Source: Deltaproteobacteria bacterium
GTDB lineage: Bacteria > Myxococcota_C > UBA6777
Assembly (NCBI GenBank): GCA_002731275.1
Contig: PCBK01000052.1
Coordinates: 124,001-188,000 of the forward strand
DNA length: 64,000 bases
Direction of reading: 5' to 3'
In this document: positions 21,025 through 33,032 of the stretch, piece after piece
Layout: every line of letters begins with the position of its first letter
Position numbering within the stretch: the stretch's first letter is position 1
The notes under the pieces: generated by a model
The model's database searches: none
The model's input: only the letters and a program-made list of their open reading frames with translations
What the model was told of the DNA's origin: nothing
Translations under genes and position numbers: made by a program

Positions 21025-23703
21025 TTATTCTTCGAGTCCACCGCGCTCAGAGAGCAGCTTTTTGATACGCGCCATCTCTGCGAGCGCCTGTCTTTTTGCG
21101 CCACCATCACCGGAGCGAGTGATCTCCGAGAGACGGCGAAAGCTAGCGAGCGAGCGTCGTAAGTCGAGGATGTTCTTGCCTCGGTAGTAACGCTGCTCGT
21201 AGACCTGCCCCAAACCACGGAAGAGCGCTTTTGAGTTGCGGTATTTATCCGCGGCGCTAAAGCGGTTACGCATACGCTCCGCTTGCTTGAGCAAACGGAT
21301 GGAGGTGCGGTAATCCTTACAGCGAGCGTATTCGAGTCCCATTTGCATCGCGCGGTATGGGTTGTATCGGTTGCGGGGATCTCGATACAACGTCATCAAA
21401 GCGCTCTTTCCGCTCGTGTAGGCTTTCTTCTGACAGTAGAAGCGGCCCAAATACAGGTGAGAGATAAAGTACTCTTTGTGTGCCTTTTTGACGTTGCGCA
21501 GACAGCTGACTTCTTCTTCTTCGAGGAAGATCTTGTTGCGGATCTTTTTGCGGATCCGGCTCAACACACAACCTTTCCCAGCGCTCACAAAGCGGACCGT
21601 CATCGCCGTGCTCCCCTTGGTCACGTTGAAGACCTTCTGCACACTGCCCGTTGACATCTTCGCGATGACACGTTGGAACGTCCCCACAGGCATCTTCACA
21701 CGGAGATAGCCTTTTTTGTTCGCGCGTCCGACATTTTCGCCATTACACTCGCCTTTCAAGATGAAGGGAGTACGTGCAGGCGCTTTGAGCATAACGATGC
21801 GCTTGCGTCCACGTGTGCGGCGGAAACATCGAGCGTTGATAGGCTTATCGTTGACAAACTCTTCGAAGGACGCCTTTGCATTGTACTCAAAGACACCTCG
21901 TTTGATCCGAATACGACGTCTGACACGACGAGGACGATACTGAGAGTTGGGGGCCAAAAATTCGATACGGATCGTGCCACGAGGACGCCCTGTGTACTCG
22001 AGAGGCACTGCCTGACCAGCTTCCACAACAGTCCCTGCAGACTTTCCGTTCATTTTGATCTTCACACCTTTGACGTTCGCCATCGCGCTGATCGTGATAG
22101 GAGGACGCTTCTCAAAGGAGAAGTCCTCACGGTATCCGTCAGCCTGACCGTAACGGAGCGCGACTTTTTTGATGATCCGACTGACCTTGAACGCGCCTCG
22201 TTTTTTCGCCTTCATCGTGATCTTCACAGGGCGTGGATTCTTGCGTCGTGTTTTGTGTGTGATCTCAAGAGAGCCATTCGCGTCGGGGATCGTCCCAACG
22301 TAGGAGCGTCCTCTGTAGACCTTGACTCCGCCAGCGGTACTTGAGACGACGATCTTGTACACACCGTCGAACTTTTTGGCAGGGGGAGGTGTGATGGGGT
22401 TGTTGTTACCGCCAGGGGGTGGTGGTGGGTTGTCGCTGCCATTGTTACCGTTTTGACTACCAAAAACACCTCCGCCATTGTTCACAGCAACAGGTCGGGG
22501 TTTTGGAGGCTCAGGAAGTCGGAATTTGGCTTCGACAGTATAATCGTATTGTCCTTTGACGATCTTCACGTACTTGCGAATACGACGAGGACGCGTTTTG
22601 CGGTTCGGCGCGTACACAGTCACACGAATACTTCGCCGTGGACGACCGGTGTACTCGAGCTGCACAGCTTGGTCTGCAGAGACGACGGTCCCTTGAGCTT
22701 TCCCACGCATCTTCACTTTGGCACCAGGAGCGTTGCAATTGACAGCGATTTTGATCGGTGGACGTTTTTCGAATTGTGCTTCGACGTTGTACTCTTCCTG
22801 TTGTGGGTCGATTTCGAGCACTTTTGTGATCTTCTTCTCGGTATACGCATAGCGATCCTTGGCTTTGAAGACGATCTTGACTTTGCGAGGATTGCGTCGG
22901 CGATCTTTGTGCTTGAAGGTCAAACGTCCACCAGCGTCGCGGATCGTGCCGATGTAACGAAACCCTCGGTACACTTTGATATTTGCGACATTCGCGGTGA
23001 TGCTGATGTTGTAGACCCCTTTTGGTGGAGGCGGCGCGACGGGTCGAGGTGCAGGTGTCGGATCGACACGAGGAGGAGGTGTCATACCTCCACCGTTTCC
23101 AACATTAGAAGGAGGAGGGTTCACAGGATCGACTCTTCGAGGTTCGATACGTGCGATTGGACGTGGTCTTGGGATTGTATTTCGTCTCGCAACAGGCGTC
23201 CCACCGCTGGGAGTGGGATCGACCGTTGAGCCGCCGTTGGGTGTCGGCGCGACAGTTGAGCCAACATTGGGTGTCGGTGAGACGGTCCCGCCGTTGCCGG
23301 CTGCTGGTGTTCCACCACCGACCTCACTAGCCCCACGCAAGAAGGCTTCTACCTTGATATCGCTGGGTAGAAATCCATTCTTGGTCTTCCGCAAGCGAAG
23401 ACGGCTGGTCATGATCATGTAGTTATCAGAGCCTGGTCCTTCGACCCGGATCTGGATTTTTGAATGCACTTTTCCTCGGTATGTACCGACGAATGTCCCA
23501 TATATATCGGTTTTTCCGATCTCTTTCTTGTTCACCAAGACCCTCGCGTTGGGGATCCCGACTTTTTCGGTAGTCAGTGCAATGACCTTGATGGGGAAGA
23601 GACCTTCCTTGGCCACGTTAGAAGGGCATCCTGTGAAAAGGACAGCCGCAAACATGCATCCCATCATCCAGAAAATCAACGCCACTTGGCGATTCCGTCT
23701 CAT
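21025..23703 (-). CDS. Large lipoprotein with duplicated PEGA-like modules and TPR-like C-terminus
   Basis: An 892-residue lipoprotein starting at ATG 23703 (AGGAGG seven bases upstream). The signal peptide ends LFTGC. A carboxypeptidase-regulatory-like segment (about 35-125) is followed by a Pro/Gly/Asn-rich linker (about 135-225). Two similar modules of ~175 residues follow (about 225-400 and 455-640), each starting GVY(N/K)I and containing KVYRG-YIGTI, then KRPPI and KMxGKxxGTVV. A second Pro/Gly/Asn linker separates them. The last 150 residues are TPR-like (HLYLGRFYCQKKAYTSGKSA). The modules resemble PEGA domains. Likely an outer-membrane structural or adhesive protein; exact role unknown. 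Confidence 0.7.
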   Translation of the reverse strand: MRRNRQVALIFWMMGCMFAAVLFTGCPSNVAKEGLFPIKVIALTTEKVGIPNARVLVNKKEIGKTDIYGTFVGTYRGKVHSKIQIRVEGPGSDNYMIMTSRLRLRKTKNGFLPSDIKVEAFLRGASEVGGGTPAAGNGGTVSPTPNVGSTVAPTPNGGSTVDPTPSGGTPVARRNTIPRPRPIARIEPRRVDPVNPPPSNVGNGGGMTPPPRVDPTPAPRPVAPPPPKGVYNISITANVANIKVYRGFRYIGTIRDAGGRLTFKHKDRRRNPRKVKIVFKAKDRYAYTEKKITKVLEIDPQQEEYNVEAQFEKRPPIKIAVNCNAPGAKVKMRGKAQGTVVSADQAVQLEYTGRPRRSIRVTVYAPNRKTRPRRIRKYVKIVKGQYDYTVEAKFRLPEPPKPRPVAVNNGGGVFGSQNGNNGSDNPPPPPGGNNNPITPPPAKKFDGVYKIVVSSTAGGVKVYRGRSYVGTIPDANGSLEITHKTRRKNPRPVKITMKAKKRGAFKVSRIIKKVALRYGQADGYREDFSFEKRPPITISAMANVKGVKIKMNGKSAGTVVEAGQAVPLEYTGRPRGTIRIEFLAPNSQYRPRRVRRRIRIKRGVFEYNAKASFEEFVNDKPINARCFRRTRGRKRIVMLKAPARTPFILKGECNGENVGRANKKGYLRVKMPVGTFQRVIAKMSTGSVQKVFNVTKGSTAMTVRFVSAGKGCVLSRIRKKIRNKIFLEEEEVSCLRNVKKAHKEYFISHLYLGRFYCQKKAYTSGKSALMTLYRDPRNRYNPYRAMQMGLEYARCKDYRTSIRLLKQAERMRNRFSAADKYRNSKALFRGLGQVYEQRYYRGKNILDLRRSLASFRRLSEITRSGDGGAKRQALAEMARIKKLLSERGGLEE

Positions 23704-23747
23704 CGATCGTCCTCCTATGTCTGGCTTCTTTGCAAAGAATCCAATGC

Positions 23748-24272
23748 TCATTCAGAAACAGGCGCTTTGCCGCCGACTCCAGAACGCTTCACTTCTTTTT
23801 GTTTGGTCTCAACGACAGAGGGAAGGGGCTTGGTTTTTTCGACCATTACGATTTTACCGACAAAGATTTTGGGGCCTTTGTAGTCAATCGTCGCAGGTCT
23901 TGCGTGAAACCCATCCTTCACAAACTTCAGCTCATACCCGCCAGCAGGGATAGGCTCTTTTGCAGTCTCTCCCGTCTCGGCGTTAACGATCTTGCGGCGG
24001 TGACAGATCTCAAAAAACCCGTTGCTATCTGTGACTTCGGGACTGGTCGCTGGCTGTGTGCTGATCAACACACCAGAGAACCCCTTACCATCTTCATCGA
24101 CGATACGGCCCTTGATGCAGCCTTTGGGTCCCCCCGTTACGCCGCCCCCTGTCGTGATTGCAGAAGTGTTTGTTTTGTTTTTGACATTCTTTCCACCAGG
24201 GCAAGCCCCGAACAACAAAGAAGAGCACATAATCGCCAGACAGAACTGCCAATGGACTGCTTTTTTGCGCAT
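23748..24272 (-). CDS. Lipoprotein with carboxypeptidase-regulatory-like domain
   Basis: A 174-residue lipoprotein. The signal peptide ends LLFGAC (Cys24). After a Gly/Thr-rich spacer comes a beta-sandwich of the carboxypeptidase-regulatory-like type: KGRIVDEDGKGFSGVLIST, then TDSNGFFEI, then YELKFVKDGF. These small transthyretin-like domains are common in surface proteins and mediate binding rather than catalysis. AAAGGA precedes the ATG. It lies 44 bases upstream of the large PEGA-like lipoprotein gene, which begins with a similar domain, so the two probably act together. Confidence 0.7.
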   Translation of the reverse strand: MRKKAVHWQFCLAIMCSSLLFGACPGGKNVKNKTNTSAITTGGGVTGGPKGCIKGRIVDEDGKGFSGVLISTQPATSPEVTDSNGFFEICHRRKIVNAETGETAKEPIPAGGYELKFVKDGFHARPATIDYKGPKIFVGKIVMVEKTKPLPSVVETKQKEVKRSGVGGKAPVSE

Positions 24273-25152: not shown

Positions 25153-27183
<2,031 letters not shown>

Positions 27184-27425
27184 TGCCTTCTTTGCCTGCT
27201 TTCATACGTGAGGATCGCCGCCAACAACGCTGGACCCACAGCGCTACGGCCCCTCCTTCAAGAGAATCTTCTCTCGTGGTGTATCACGAAGATCACAAAA
27301 TCGCAAACACAGTTACGGCGCAAACGACGAAATGAAGTGAAGTGTAATCAATGATGGGAGAGAGTGTGAAAGCAAAGGAAAGTGAAGGGATTGAAGTGTC
27401 GTGACATCGAAGGGGAGACAAAAAA

Positions 27426-27509
27426 GGCGAGACAGAGAGGCTGAACGACGCAAAAGAAAAAGCCCGCAACCATTGTAAAATAAGCGTCGTCCAGCCTCTC
27501 TACCTCGCC
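27426..27509. repeat. Hairpin element 1 of the conserved-loop array
   Basis: Arms 27426-27451 and 27484-27509 form a 26-bp stem with three non-Watson-Crick positions. Those three become G-U pairs if the minus strand is transcribed. The 32-base loop contains AAAAAGCCCGCAACCATT (motif 27462-27473), flanked by A-rich sequence. No T tract follows, so it is not a simple terminator. Confidence 0.75.
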
Positions 27510-27613
27510 GGTATATGAGGCACTTTCAAAGGAAAGTAAACCCAAACTTCCACTCACATCTCGTGAGGGAGGATGATGCTATGTGCAAGATATTGAAGAA
27601 AACCGCGGGAAAC

Positions 27614-27686
27614 CAAGAGCTGATGGCGAGAAAAATAAATGAAAAAGCCCGCAACCATCAATTTTTACCATTGCCACTGGCTCTTG
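27614..27686. repeat. Hairpin element 2 of the conserved-loop array
   Basis: Arms 27614-27629 and 27671-27686 pair through CAAGAGC/GCTCTTG and TGGC/GCCA with a three-position interior region that can form two G-U pairs on the plus strand. The 41-base loop holds GAAAAAGCCCGCAACCATC (motif 27647-27658). The stem sequence is unrelated to those of elements 1 and 3. Confidence 0.65.
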
Positions 27687-27723
27687 ATTCACCCAGCGTG
27701 TTCTCTATCAAAATCGAAGGGTT

Positions 27724-27808
27724 GGATGTCTTGAAGCGGAGCAAAAATAGTTAATTTGAAGCCCGCAACCATGTAAAAAAATTACCTATGCCCTACCTCG
27801 GGACATCC
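27724..27808. repeat. Hairpin element 3 of the conserved-loop array
   Basis: Arms GGATGTCTTGA (27724-27734) and TCGGGACATCC (27798-27808) form 11 continuous pairs on the plus strand, two of them G-U. Weaker pairing extends outward (CGAA with TTCG). The 63-base loop holds GAAGCCCGCAACCATG (motif 27761-27772), again with A/T-rich flanks. Confidence 0.65.
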
Positions 27809-28153
27809 GTTCCATTCGGCGAAAACGACTCTCAAGAGTTGTTGTCTCTTGCTGTCTGACGTTCTCGCCCCACACATAGAGCAAGAGCAGTGCCAGCTTC
27901 CAAAAACAACAAAAATCCCCTTGTATTCATGGGGTATCGCCCCAAATCGTTGGCACAGACCTCCCGAAAGGTGTATGCTCTATCCAAGGCGATGTGGACA
28001 AATGAGACTCCACCGTTTTCACACCCCACATCACACAACAGTTATTTTTATGTTCAAAAACAGTATGGTAAAGCATACACCACTCAAACTCACAGATCGG
28101 ACTAATCACCTTCCGTCCCTGGCACACTCTCTCTTTGCCTTGGCAGGTACCCC

Positions 28154-29356
28154 ATGAATACATTTTCCCAGAGGCTGCTTTTGGCGGGCCTATGTCTGGT
28201 CCTTTTGCCCCTTTTCCTCGGCCTTTTCATCGGCTCTTCTTTTTACGCAAGTCCACTCAAACTGCTCGCGGCGCCGACACTCCAACGAGAACTACACAAA
28301 CCTCTTCCAGATCAAAAAGTGCTCGCTCCCTACATTAAAAAGATCACACAAAGTCATCAGGCGATCAGACAAGGGATCATCTGGGCTTCGATCGCAGCAA
28401 TAGGCCTCTCACTCGTGCTATTGTTACTCGCTTGGAGTTGGTTGTTGCGTTACCTCATCCAACAACTCCACCCAATGAGAGAACAACTCAAAGAAGCCAC
28501 GCCCTCTGATAACTCGACGCCGCGACCTCTGTACGAAGATCCGATCACAGCGCTGCACTTCGATCTCCAACAACATCTCGCTTATTGGGAAGAGCACCAA
28601 CAAAACGAAGTCTTTGCCGAGCAATTGGAGCGCTGGCAGGACATCGCACGGCGCCTCGCGCACGAGATCAAAAATCCCCTCACACCGATTCTTCTGGCTG
28701 TACAAGAGTTACACAAACAATATCGCGGCGACGACCAACGATACCACCGCCTCCTCGACTCCTCACAGGAGATCGTGCGAGAGGAGATTGAGACGCTTCG
28801 TCGTCTCGTCGAAGAATTCTCCGGATTTGCCAAACTCCCAGAAGCTCAACTCGCTCCCACAGAGATCAATCAATTCCTCCACCGTTTTTTGGAGAGCTAC
28901 CAGTGGTTTGAAGGACAAGCAGAGGTCCACTTCCGCCCTCACCCCGGTCCTTGCTGGGGTATGCTCGACACCAATCTACTCAAGCGCGTGATGCACAATC
29001 TCGTCAAAAACGCGATCGAAGCAGGAAGTCCCGAGGTGACCTTGCAGCTCGGCGCGCTCCCAGGCCGCCAAGTCGCGATCCAAGTCGAAGACAAAGGTCC
29101 TGGAATTCCCGAGCATTTACAATCGAAGATCTTTACCCCATACTTCACAACAAAACAATTTGGCTCAGGTCTTGGACTCGCGATCACCAAAAAAATTGTT
29201 CTCGATCACGGCGGCTCACTCAAAGTCAACGCAAATCCACAGGGTGGGGCGACATTCTCGCTCATCATCCCCGTGCTCCAGCCTCCGGACTCATCGAAGC
29301 ATCCCACATCAATGAAGCACAACAACGACGCCCCATCATCTCCCAAGACCCCATAA
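28154..29356 (+). CDS. Sensor histidine kinase (NtrY-like)
   Basis: A 400-residue membrane kinase. Two membrane helices (about 7-30 and 74-98) enclose a short periplasmic domain of ~45 residues. The H-box ARRLAHEIKNPLTP places the phosphorylated His at residue 170. The ATPase domain has the N-box HNLVKNAIEAG, G1 DKGPGIP, F-box FTPYFTTK and G2 GSGLGLAI. HEIKNPLTP is typical of NtrY-type kinases, which partner with NtrX regulators such as the next gene, 71 bases downstream. The periplasmic loop is too small for a classical ligand domain, so the signal may be membrane- or envelope-derived. The tail after the ATPase domain is unstructured. Confidence 0.88.
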   Translation: MNTFSQRLLLAGLCLVLLPLFLGLFIGSSFYASPLKLLAAPTLQRELHKPLPDQKVLAPYIKKITQSHQAIRQGIIWASIAAIGLSLVLLLLAWSWLLRYLIQQLHPMREQLKEATPSDNSTPRPLYEDPITALHFDLQQHLAYWEEHQQNEVFAEQLERWQDIARRLAHEIKNPLTPILLAVQELHKQYRGDDQRYHRLLDSSQEIVREEIETLRRLVEEFSGFAKLPEAQLAPTEINQFLHRFLESYQWFEGQAEVHFRPHPGPCWGMLDTNLLKRVMHNLVKNAIEAGSPEVTLQLGALPGRQVAIQVEDKGPGIPEHLQSKIFTPYFTTKQFGSGLGLAITKKIVLDHGGSLKVNANPQGGATFSLIIPVLQPPDSSKHPTSMKHNNDAPSSPKTP

Positions 29357-29427: not shown

Positions 29428-30804
29428 ATGAATGTAATGGATCCATCTTACTTTCGTATTCTTGTGATCGATGACGAAAAAAACATCTGCCGCACCATGA
29501 AGATGGTCCTCGAAGGAGAAGGCTACCACGTCATCACCTGTGGCAGCGGTGAGTCTGGACTTGAGACGCTCAAAAATGACCCCTTCGATCTCGTCCTACT
29601 CGATCTCTACCTCCCCGGAATGGACGGACAAAAAACCCTCGAAGAGATCAAAAGACTCGACGAACACATCGAAGTCATCATGATCTCGGGACATGGCACC
29701 ATCGACGACGCTGTTAAAGCTGTCAAGCGCGGCGCCTACAGCTTTATCGAGAAGCCGATCGAACGCGAACGCCTCTTGCTCAGCGTACGCCAAAGCCTCG
29801 AACGACGAACGATGCTTCGACAAGTTCAAGAGTTCGAGCACAGCGAACACGACCGATCGGAGATGGTAGGTCTCAGTGAGCCGATGCAACAAGTGTATCG
29901 AAATATCGAGAAGGTCGCCCCAACAAAAGGTTGGGTGTTGATCACAGGTGAGAGTGGAACAGGGAAAGAGCTCGTCGCACGTGCACTCCACCTTCGAAGT
30001 AGCCGAGCAGACAAGCCCTTTGTGAAGGTTAACTGTGCGGCCATTCCAGAAGAGTTGATCGAGAGTGAGTTGTTTGGACACGAAAAAGGTGCCTTCACAG
30101 GTGCGATCCGTACGAGGCAAGGCGAGTTTGAACGCGCACATACAGGGACGATCTTCCTCGATGAGATCGGCGATATGTCCCAACACGCGCAGGCCAAAGT
30201 CCTACGTGTCCTCAACACAGGGGACTTCTCTCGCGTCGGTGGCGATCGCACAATACAAGTCGACGTCCGCGTCGTCGCGGGGACCAACCTCGACCTCACT
30301 GAAGAGATCCGACAAGGACGCTTTCGCGAAGATCTCTACTTTCGCCTCAACGTCATCCCCATCCACCTCCCGCCGCTCCGAGAAAGACGAGATGACGTCC
30401 CCCTACTCCTGGAACACTTCGTCCAATTCTTTTGCAAAGAACATGGATACGATCAAAAGACGATCACGCCCAAAGCCGTCCAGGCACTCCAGCAGTACAG
30501 TTGGCCCGGAAACGTCCGAGAGCTTAAGAATCTCGTCGAGCGACTCGTCATCCTCAGCGGTCCAGTGATCGACACAGCCGACCTGCCCGATGAGATCCAA
30601 AAAAAGCGGGCCGTCGTGGACTTCGCGTCACTTGGAAATCGCACCCTCAAAGAGATCCGCGAAGAGGTCGAACGTAGCTATATTTTGATGAAGCTTCAAG
30701 AGAACGACTGGAACATCTCCAGGACAGCCGAGCTGCTCGGGATAGAACGCACCAACCTGCACAAAAAGATGAAGAACTACAATATTCAACGCCCCACACG
30801 TTGA
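29428..30804 (+). CDS. Sigma-54-dependent response regulator (NtrX/NtrC type)
   Basis: A 458-residue regulator. The receiver domain (about 10-125) has acidic residues Asp15/Asp16, phospho-acceptor Asp59 (LLDLYLPGMDG), and Lys in EKPI. The AAA+ domain (about 150-385) has Walker A GESGTGKE, the sigma-54-contacting GAFTGA loop (HEKGAFTGAI), Walker B TIFLDEIGDMS and the sensor II region WPGNVRELKNLVER. A Fis-type helix-turn-helix closes it (NISRTAELLGIERTNLHKKM). ATG 29428 follows AAAGGA; the frame is open much further upstream but only as overlap with the kinase gene. Phosphorylated by the kinase upstream, it should activate sigma-54 promoters, none of which I could place in this window. Confidence 0.9.
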   Translation: MNVMDPSYFRILVIDDEKNICRTMKMVLEGEGYHVITCGSGESGLETLKNDPFDLVLLDLYLPGMDGQKTLEEIKRLDEHIEVIMISGHGTIDDAVKAVKRGAYSFIEKPIERERLLLSVRQSLERRTMLRQVQEFEHSEHDRSEMVGLSEPMQQVYRNIEKVAPTKGWVLITGESGTGKELVARALHLRSSRADKPFVKVNCAAIPEELIESELFGHEKGAFTGAIRTRQGEFERAHTGTIFLDEIGDMSQHAQAKVLRVLNTGDFSRVGGDRTIQVDVRVVAGTNLDLTEEIRQGRFREDLYFRLNVIPIHLPPLRERRDDVPLLLEHFVQFFCKEHGYDQKTITPKAVQALQQYSWPGNVRELKNLVERLVILSGPVIDTADLPDEIQKKRAVVDFASLGNRTLKEIREEVERSYILMKLQENDWNISRTAELLGIERTNLHKKMKNYNIQRPTR

Positions 30805-30835: not shown

Positions 30836-32722
30836 TCAAAAGAAGCGTGGCCACGGACAGTTTAGGGGTGTACGTCGCAGGGGATTGAAGGGGTAGGAGT
30901 GCTTGTAGCGCGCTTTTTTAAAGATCTTACGAACAGATGCTCCGACCTGTACCATCGACCGCATCGCCTCGACAAAGCAACAAATCGCCTCTGGCTGGCG
31001 CGCGGGGTGCTCACTGAGAGCCTCTTTGGCTTTCTCCATAGCCTTCTTCCTGCCGATCTTTCGAGCGAGCTTGCGATGCTTACGACGAACTTTGCGCAGA
31101 TAGTCCTTCCAGTCCTTGAAGTAGCGCAACATCAACTTCTCCATCACGGGGATAATTTCTCGTGCACCAATTTTACCAAGAGTACGGACATATGAAGCGT
31201 CTGGAGGATAAGGACCGCGTTTAATTGCGGTGATATACATTGGAACGTTCTCCTGATCTCCGAGCGAGATCAAGGCCTGTACGGCTTTCAACATCACTTT
31301 GGCGTCGGGATCCTTCAACATTTTACGGACAGGTTTGACGGCCCGAAGATCTTTCAAACGCCCCAATGAGCTAAGCGCGGCCATCCGAACTTTGCTCGAC
31401 TTATCTTCGAGTTGCTCGATCAACACGTCGACACAGGTCGAGTCCTGAACTTTGCCTGCGACATGTAACGCGAGGAGTCGGACTTTTTCATCCGAGGAGG
31501 TCATAAACGGACGCAGCGTAGAGAAGGCCTCCCTCCCGATATCGCCAAGCGCACGGATCGCAGAGTATTTGATCGCAGGTTGCTTGCTCTTGAGGAAGAC
31601 CTCCAAACGCAAGAGCGCATCGTTACCAGTGTATCCAAGCGCAAAAATCGCGGTGCTGCGGATCGCGAGGTTGCTGTTCGTTTTGGCGACGTTGTAGAGT
31701 AACTCACGCCCCTTTTCATCAAACCGCGCGGCGATTTTCCCGATCGTAGCGCGCAATTGAGAACGCGCAGTTAAGGGGATCGAGTCCCACAACATAAAGA
31801 TCGCCTTGATCGCCCACAAAGTCCCCACTTGCATCAAGGCACCAAGCTCTTTGCTCTCGCCATCCTCGCTCTTTCCACCAGCATCGATCAGCTTGCCGAG
31901 ATATTCCCATGAGTCCTGATCCTGGGTGATGTTGGAGAGCGCCTCTGCGACTTTGGTGCGCGTTTTCTTCTCGGGGAATACCATGATCAACGCGTCAAAA
32001 GCGGGCCTCCCCATTTGGGAGAGCATACTCAATGCGCGTCTTCGACGTCCTGCATCAGAACCTTTGACGTCCCGAATCAAGTAGGGGACCGCTCCTTTTC
32101 CGATCTCCAGCATCGCCAACCGTGCGGCATCGCGGACTTGCTGAGAGTGATCATCAAGCAAGACCATCAAATGCTTCACGGAAGTGTTGGACTTGAGGAC
32201 AGCGAGCGCACGAGCAGCCGCAGCCCGAGTCGAGGATTTCGGATCTTTCAGGGCCTTGTATAAAGCCCCCAGCGCGCGCATGTCACCGAGCCCTCCAAGC
32301 GCTGCAGCCGCAGTCATTCGTACACGTGGATCGCGATCTTCGAGCAACGCATCCTTCACCTCTTCGAGCGCACCTTTTGCACGCAGCTCAGCAAGACCAC
32401 GTAACGCCATCAAACGCAATGAGGAGTCTTTTTCGTGCATCAAGACCATCCTCATGATCCCTGCTGCGCGAGGTAACCCCGTCTGGTAAATCGCATCTAG
32501 CGCATCTTTACGACGATTGACACTGTTTCTCTTGCCAAGCTCTTCTGTCAGGTATTTGCGAAAGTAACGAAATGACTTCTGTCGCTTGGTCACGTCCTTC
32601 TGTTTTGCGTCTTGGAGCGCTTGCTTCCAGCTGTAACCACAACCGACTCCCCCCAACATGATCAACAACACAAACCCAATGCCCCCTATCGACAAGGCTC
32701 GGTTTCCAAAGAGACATTTCAT
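30836..32722 (-). CDS. HEAT-repeat lipoprotein
   Basis: A 628-residue protein starting at ATG 32722. The signal peptide ends LGGVGC, so it is probably a lipoprotein. The body (about 85-540) is a HEAT/PBS-lyase repeat solenoid: DPRVRMTAAAALGGLGDMRAL, SSTRAAAARALAVL, VRDAARLAMLEIG, VRLLALHVAGKV and KVRMAALSSLGRLKDLRAV. Such repeats bind protein partners. The C-terminus (about 545-628) is a Lys/Arg-rich helical tail (KVRRKHRKLARKIGRKKAME). It is convergent with the response-regulator gene, 31 bases away. Likely a periplasmic scaffold; no partner can be named from sequence. Confidence 0.78.
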   Translation of the reverse strand: MKCLFGNRALSIGGIGFVLLIMLGGVGCGYSWKQALQDAKQKDVTKRQKSFRYFRKYLTEELGKRNSVNRRKDALDAIYQTGLPRAAGIMRMVLMHEKDSSLRLMALRGLAELRAKGALEEVKDALLEDRDPRVRMTAAAALGGLGDMRALGALYKALKDPKSSTRAAAARALAVLKSNTSVKHLMVLLDDHSQQVRDAARLAMLEIGKGAVPYLIRDVKGSDAGRRRRALSMLSQMGRPAFDALIMVFPEKKTRTKVAEALSNITQDQDSWEYLGKLIDAGGKSEDGESKELGALMQVGTLWAIKAIFMLWDSIPLTARSQLRATIGKIAARFDEKGRELLYNVAKTNSNLAIRSTAIFALGYTGNDALLRLEVFLKSKQPAIKYSAIRALGDIGREAFSTLRPFMTSSDEKVRLLALHVAGKVQDSTCVDVLIEQLEDKSSKVRMAALSSLGRLKDLRAVKPVRKMLKDPDAKVMLKAVQALISLGDQENVPMYITAIKRGPYPPDASYVRTLGKIGAREIIPVMEKLMLRYFKDWKDYLRKVRRKHRKLARKIGRKKAMEKAKEALSEHPARQPEAICCFVEAMRSMVQVGASVRKIFKKARYKHSYPFNPLRRTPLNCPWPRFF

Positions 32723-33032
32723 CGAATAAAAACCTTTCCTTTGCACAAACGATCTGGAGACAAAGACGATCGCAATCGCCTCACCCTACGCCGCTTTTGC
32801 GTCTATCTTCAGACTGACCTTGCAGTCATTTTGACGTCTCAACCGCACCGCTCTGCGATCGATATTCATCTATCATTGCAGGCACAGTATACATCCCGAT
32901 CCAGGATGACGAAAGCCAGCGCAGGCCACAAAAAAGCTCATACGTCACTCGTCCACTAGAGAATTGGACGACAAACATACAACACTGGACTTCATACGGG
33001 ACAACCGAACAGGAAAAATCAAGAATGAGCGC

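Follow-up and report, generated by a model that had tools for sequence, protein, structure and literature searches.

To our knowledge, hardly any small RNAs (sRNAs) have been characterised in the Myxococcota and their relatives, Pxr of Myxococcus xanthus being the known example. Pxr is encoded beside nla19, the gene of a sigma54-dependent regulator, has a predicted sigma54 promoter and forms three stem-loops (PMC5568312). The hairpin array described here resembles Pxr in its layout, i.e., in a neighbouring sigma54 regulator, a sigma54 promoter and three motif stem-loops, but Pxr is only 108 nt long, lies downstream of its regulator and controls fruiting-body development (PMC5568312). In addition, Pxr has not been described with a repeated loop motif, and its published probe region does not contain GGTTGCGGGC.

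Among the sRNAs of more distant bacteria, the Qrr sRNAs of Vibrio, one of which adjoins luxO, are driven by the sigma54 response regulator LuxO; unlike the array studied here, they act by Hfq-dependent base pairing and lack a repeated apical motif on stems that are free in sequence. CrcZ of Pseudomonas, controlled by CbrA/CbrB, is comparable as an RNA of about 400 nt beside a two-component system (TCS), with an RpoN promoter and the role of a multivalent decoy (PMC8395346). However, it carries A-rich Hfq motifs and lies downstream of cbrB, whereas here the G-rich GGUUGCGGGCU occupies the hairpin apices, Hfq was not found and the CrcZ-type combination of Hfq with multiple A-rich ARN motifs is absent. 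RsmZ, RsmY and CsrB of the Gac/Rsm system have tandem hairpins that display a short motif, control by a TCS and a decoy logic (PMC8395346, PMC4005645), the last two of which are presumed for our array, but their motif is GGA, bound by CsrA/RsmA, and the promoter found here is of the sigma54 type. NrsZ of Pseudomonas, under NtrB/C, is an RpoN-dependent sRNA encoded at an ntr locus (PMC8395346), although it is 226 nt long, is processed and base-pairs with rhlA mRNA. LhrC of Listeria is an sRNA under the control of a TCS, LisRK, and its three binding sites are redundant (PMC4132741), but these sites are CU-rich, pair with mRNAs and are unrelated in sequence to the motif reported here, and LhrC is not a sigma54 system. 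With the class of sigma54-dependent sRNAs that adjoin a TCS our locus has in common both a sigma54-type promoter and an adjacent GAFTGA-containing regulator with its cognate kinase.

In this study the locus was compared in five genomes of the phylum from three genera, denoted G000 to G004. G000 is the genome of the window, i.e., the whole 64 kb stretch of DNA analysed, G003 is Deltaproteobacteria bacterium M3003 (SBHC01), and G002 and G004 are Myxococcota MAGs; four of the five are too incomplete or contaminated for a quality filter. Rfam 15 yielded no family at the gathering score for any of the arrays; that of G000 gave sub-threshold microRNA-like and other matches and the others gave none at E 0.1. 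The microRNA-like matches to hairpin 1 are due to its long stem only. We rate the array as a new sRNA family without a match in Rfam.

Structure and Strand of the Hairpin Array

The 12-mer GCCCGCAACCAT occurs at positions 27462, 27647 and 27761 of the window and nowhere else in it, even if one mismatch is allowed (three copies found versus 0.29 expected). None of 100 shuffled windows contained three copies, and in the whole 10.75 Mb genome it is present three times on the forward strand, all in the array, and not at all on the reverse strand. All copies fall in hairpin loops, and each of these hairpins has a better fold than its dinucleotide-shuffled versions, with z-scores for hairpins 1, 2 and 3 of -8.6, -3.4 and -3.5 on the plus strand and -8.6, -4.0 and -2.1 on the minus strand. 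The initial annotation had described three hairpins with a shared loop motif and unrelated but pairing stems; the positions and spacings that it gave were confirmed and its proposed shuffle test came out in favour of all three hairpins. It had also judged the array unlike CRISPR, with which we agree in view of the irregular spacing (185 and 114 nt) and the differing stems.

Hairpin 1 (27426-27509) has a fold energy of -50.6 kcal/mol on the minus strand versus -42.7 kcal/mol on the plus strand. Its reported stem of 26 bp is real, but it is continuous on the minus strand only, where G-U wobbles join positions at which the plus strand has A/C mismatches, and the RNA is, therefore, probably read from the minus strand. 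The stem size reported for hairpin 2 (27613-27687) did not hold, as its outer stem extends to about 27698 and is longer than had been claimed. Of the three, hairpin 3 (27724-27808) is weakest, and it alone gains no stability on the minus strand. In the RNA sense the loop motif reads GGTTGCGGGCT, with its first copy in hairpin 3 (27760-27770, minus strand), its second in hairpin 2 (27646-27656) and its third in hairpin 1 (27461-27471), the last hairpin of the RNA; the motif is conserved in the relatives.

Two divergent genes flank the 970-nt intergenic region in which the array lies. One encodes an ABC-F ATPase (25153-27183, minus strand), the other an NtrY/NtrB-like membrane histidine kinase (28154-29356, plus strand; Pfam HisKA and HATPase_c) and is also divergent from the RNA. 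The next gene encodes an NtrX/NtrC-like sigma54-activating response regulator (29428-30804, plus strand; Response_reg, Sigma54_activat with GAFTGA, and HTH_8), the top NCBIfam match of which is NtrX, under the cut-off of that model. Further away on the minus strand, the window encodes a tandem pair of lipoprotein-like secreted proteins (21025-24272), the larger of which contains repeated blocks and linkers rich in Pro, Gly and Thr, and a lipoprotein-like HEAT-repeat protein (30836-32746), the gene of which follows that of the response regulator directly and in convergent orientation.

Two features that the initial annotation had not mentioned delimit a predicted transcript. A perfect match to the sigma54-type -24/-12 promoter, TGGCACTGCTCTTGC (TGGCAC-TGCTC-TTGC), is present on the minus strand at 27895-27881. 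The window has no other perfect match, and the 10.75 Mb genome has 22 in total. Behind hairpin 1 there is a TTTTTT tract (27420-27425, minus strand; an A-tract on the plus strand), the predicted tail of an intrinsic terminator. An sRNA of about 450 nt is, therefore, predicted from 27869 to 27420 on the minus strand, with its start 11-12 nt past the -12 GC and its end at the U-tract, these boundaries being derived from the promoter and terminator positions and the fold of the whole transcript. At its predicted start a hairpin without the motif (GGCGAGAACG...CGTTTTCGCC; 27818-27869, minus strand) would precede the three motif hairpins, the last of which is the U-tailed predicted terminator. A 5' hairpin likewise begins near the predicted RNA start in G003, and a clear terminator is seen in G000 alone of the five genomes.

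Conservation in Related Genomes

Arrays of two or three hairpins with the loop GGTTGCGGGCT and unrelated pairing stems are present in all five genomes at the same location. G002, G003 and G004 each encode a kinase orthologue of 49-50% identity with an array upstream, and in G001 the 5' end of the gene is present. On the divergent strand upstream of the kinase there are two copies of GGTTGCGGGCT in G002 (locus L035), G004 (L036) and G001 (L070), and three in G003 (L039). The neighbour on the far side is the ABC-F gene in G000, G002 and G004, whereas G001 and G003 have a convergent CNNM/CorC gene there; since this neighbour varies while the kinase stays, the array apparently travels with the kinase-regulator pair. 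Among 11-mers, GGTTGCGGGCT is the only one repeated in all five regions, and none of 500 sets of Markov-simulated sequences had even a repeated 7-mer shared by three regions. Each genome has one array, always adjoining the kinase; elsewhere GGTTGCGGGCT occurs as isolated copies, mostly inside or antisense to long open frames, and at or below the control frequency in most of the five genomes. The search for further covarying copies that had been suggested, thus, gave none in this genome but nine at the orthologous locus of the relatives.

Across genera the stems cannot be aligned, and the arrays agree only in their location, their promoter, their 11-nt loop and their folding into hairpins. A covariance model built from the G001 and G003 hairpins, a test also proposed in the initial annotation, recovered its own five members, had no matches beyond these and missed the copies of G000, G002 and G004. 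The closely related pair G002 and G004 is 96% identical in the RNA, 89% in the kinase coding sequence, 68% upstream and 18% just downstream, so that conservation of the RNA exceeds that of the protein-coding gene beside it.

Pairing of the stems was assessed with an arm-swap test on ten hairpins, from which the near-duplicate G004 was omitted. The mean energy was -26.0 kcal/mol for hairpins with their own arms versus -12.95 kcal/mol for those with swapped arms, not one of 20,000 permutations was as good, and in all ten the outer 5' arm paired best with its own 3' arm. RNAalifold predicted 27 pairs for the five hairpins of G001 and G003, with changes on both sides that preserve pairing in 10 of these. 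Of 12 hairpins, 11 folded more stably in the sense strand, and the four stem substitutions between G002 and G004 with an unchanged partner base were all still paired on the sense strand, as A-U or G-U. In genus g2 (G001 and G003) the five hairpins, which come from two species and have unrelated stems, share without any difference a 41-nt apical element, TTGTGGGAATCAATTCGGTTGCGGGCTGAACGCGTTTTGAT, the conservation of which extends to either side of the loop. With the stems rewritten and only the 11-nt apex kept, this apex is the evident business end of the array. The first hairpin of G002 and G004 folds less neatly. In the same two genomes (L035, about 867-1045), TTTTTGCCG, CGGCAAAAAG and CTTTTTGCCG permit mutually exclusive pairings, by which their first and second hairpins could rearrange.

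The conserved locus, the conserved loop, the covariation of the stems, the strand and the promoter-like site at a fixed place all follow directly from these comparisons. The view that the structure is under selection is borne out by the presence of the arrays throughout the five genomes, the pairing of each arm with its own partner and the 10 of 27 pairs changed on both sides. Conserved orthologous arrays and covariation also lend strong support to the earlier suggestion that the hairpins could be a new family of small RNAs or an array bound by a protein. We are highly confident that the array represents one previously undescribed small regulatory RNA gene that is conserved in the group. The suggestion that the motifs might begin short MVAGF peptides has to be abandoned, because the ATG is missing from all relatives (TTC or ATA precedes the motif) and the spacing of the motifs (93 versus 92 nt in the close pair G002 and G004) is not conserved modulo 3. 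In G003 an open frame of 121 aa (L039, 579-944) runs across the three copies with a repeated LWESIRLRAERVLI peptide; the frame is not conserved in G001, and we regard it as due to chance, as the relatives are without the ATG and the spacing does not keep the frame.

Putative Control by Sigma54

The top-scoring sense-strand sigma54-like site lies 109-137 nt ahead of the first motif in all five genomes. In two lineages (G000 and G001) it matches TGGCAC-N5-TTGC perfectly, and it is imperfect in G003 (TGGCAT-N5-ATGC) and in G002 and G004 (TGGTCT-N5-TTGC), with 43 (G003) and 134-164 (G002 and G004) of 1,000 shuffles reaching the top promoter score. RpoN was detected in four of the five genomes and was not found in G003, of which the genome is 86% complete. 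Further upstream, a dyad CTCCA-N6-TGGAG is present in G002 (L035, 646-661), G004 (L036, 728-743) and G003 (L039, 297-312), with a spacer of 5 nt in G001 (L070, 388-402; last base T) and a loose candidate only in G000. The sigma54-like site follows it at a distance of about 125-205 nt. With just three copies of CTCCA-N6-TGGAG genome-wide in G002 and likewise in G004, the dyad makes a good enhancer candidate, probably that of the NtrX-like regulator. We infer that the array is transcribed and that the adjacent response regulator, its presumed activator, switches it on; control of the RNA by sigma54 through the neighbouring kinase-regulator pair seems likely to us.

Mode of Action

The explanation that we favour, with a probability of roughly 0.55 for the chain as a whole, is that of a TCS- and sigma54-controlled minus-strand sRNA that acts as a multivalent decoy and titrates an RNA-binding protein. 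The divergent histidine kinase would sense a signal, upon which the adjacent NtrX/NtrC-like regulator would activate the sigma54 promoter. A single non-coding RNA would then be transcribed from the minus strand and fold into tandem long hairpins, the stems of which may serve only as scaffolds, free in sequence as long as pairing holds, with the apical GGUUGCGGGCU as the putative working part. Each apex would bind one copy of the protein, and induction of the RNA would pull this protein off its mRNA targets. Here we infer both the decoy action and the kind of partner. The repetition of GGUUGCGGGCU two to three times, kept letter for letter, makes a multivalent decoy the most likely function, and a protein partner is favoured by the two-sided conservation of the 41-nt element, which is also longer than a pairing seed requires, together with the results on Hfq and on loop complements given below. 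More tentatively, and at somewhat less than even odds, we propose a new decoy system in which an RNA-binding regulator that is neither CsrA nor Hfq recognises the GGUUGCGGGCU-tipped hairpins and is titrated by the TCS/sigma54-induced RNA.

The alternative that survives best, although we consider it rather unlikely, keeps the same sRNA and the same control but takes the GGUUGCGGGCU loops as repeated antisense seeds for a few mRNAs or another sRNA, in the manner of LhrC with its three CU-rich sites or of the Qrr sRNAs. LhrC likewise combines a repeated identical single-stranded loop motif with control by a TCS (PMC4132741), and the most conserved part of pairing sRNAs is their seed. However, 7-8-mers complementary to the loop were not in excess at 1,500 gene starts of G000 (2.26 Mb, 21% of the genome), a search with low power for a few specific targets, and the 11-mer itself is at or under the control frequency elsewhere in most genomes. 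Moreover, Hfq was not detected above its curated cut-off in any of the five genomes, which together with the lack of excess complements argues against broad base pairing, and conservation on both loop sides of the 41-nt element of G001 and G003 does not favour a seed either. The sense motif was not enriched near the same 1,500 gene starts, which thus gave no sign of mRNAs that would compete for the protein. We note that GUUGCGGG is complementary to what we take to be the 1100 region of 16S rRNA; a chance 8-nt match to rRNA is expected about once in four trials.

It is improbable that the array is a decoy of the CsrB/RsmZ type for the CsrA of these genomes. CsrA is encoded in all five and the multi-hairpin RNA does adjoin a TCS, but the conserved loop GGUUGCGGGCU is devoid of GGA, the defining contact of CsrA, and CsrA is, therefore, an unlikely partner. 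Repeated GGA in the loops was not observed; in G000, G002 and G004 there are just sporadic GGA triplets, located in stems or between hairpins. The presence of CsrA in all five genomes and of Hfq above the cut-off in none bears on how sRNAs can act in this group.

Still less credible are sites that function as DNA, i.e., attachment or recombination sites, protein-binding cruciforms or REP-like elements, even though inverted repeats sharing a common centre would suit them: there is a single array per genome without dispersal, always beside the kinase, no phage or plasmid matches were obtained, the pairing is preserved through G-U on one strand only, and it is the loop and not the ends that is conserved. 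The attachment-type sites of the initial annotation fall with this reading, as do integron attC sites, for which the end boxes should have been conserved instead of the loop and which do not agree with a single locus among housekeeping neighbours. That the array is a leader which controls the ABC-F gene (25153-27183) in cis, as a riboswitch or attenuator, can be dismissed with equal assurance, since, although some ABC-F genes are controlled by attenuation and the array points at the ABC-F gene in G000, G002 and G004, the array of G001 and G003 precedes the convergent CNNM/CorC gene with ABC-F elsewhere, the sequence between the RNA and the ABC-F promoter is unrelated in G002 and G004, and a U-tract terminator closes the array in G000.

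Implications

In this deep-branching Myxococcota-like phylum, a module of kinase, sigma54 activator, dyad, promoter and multi-hairpin RNA appears to have been kept in every available genome. Further genomic copies of CTCCA-N5/6-TGGAG may mark the regulon of the response regulator, and the 41-nt element of G001 and G003 or hairpin 1 of G000 would provide an exact bait for an RNA-binding protein or a target. If the proposed decoy system is real, it would represent a global post-transcriptional switch of its own for a Myxococcota-like lineage in which Hfq was not detected.
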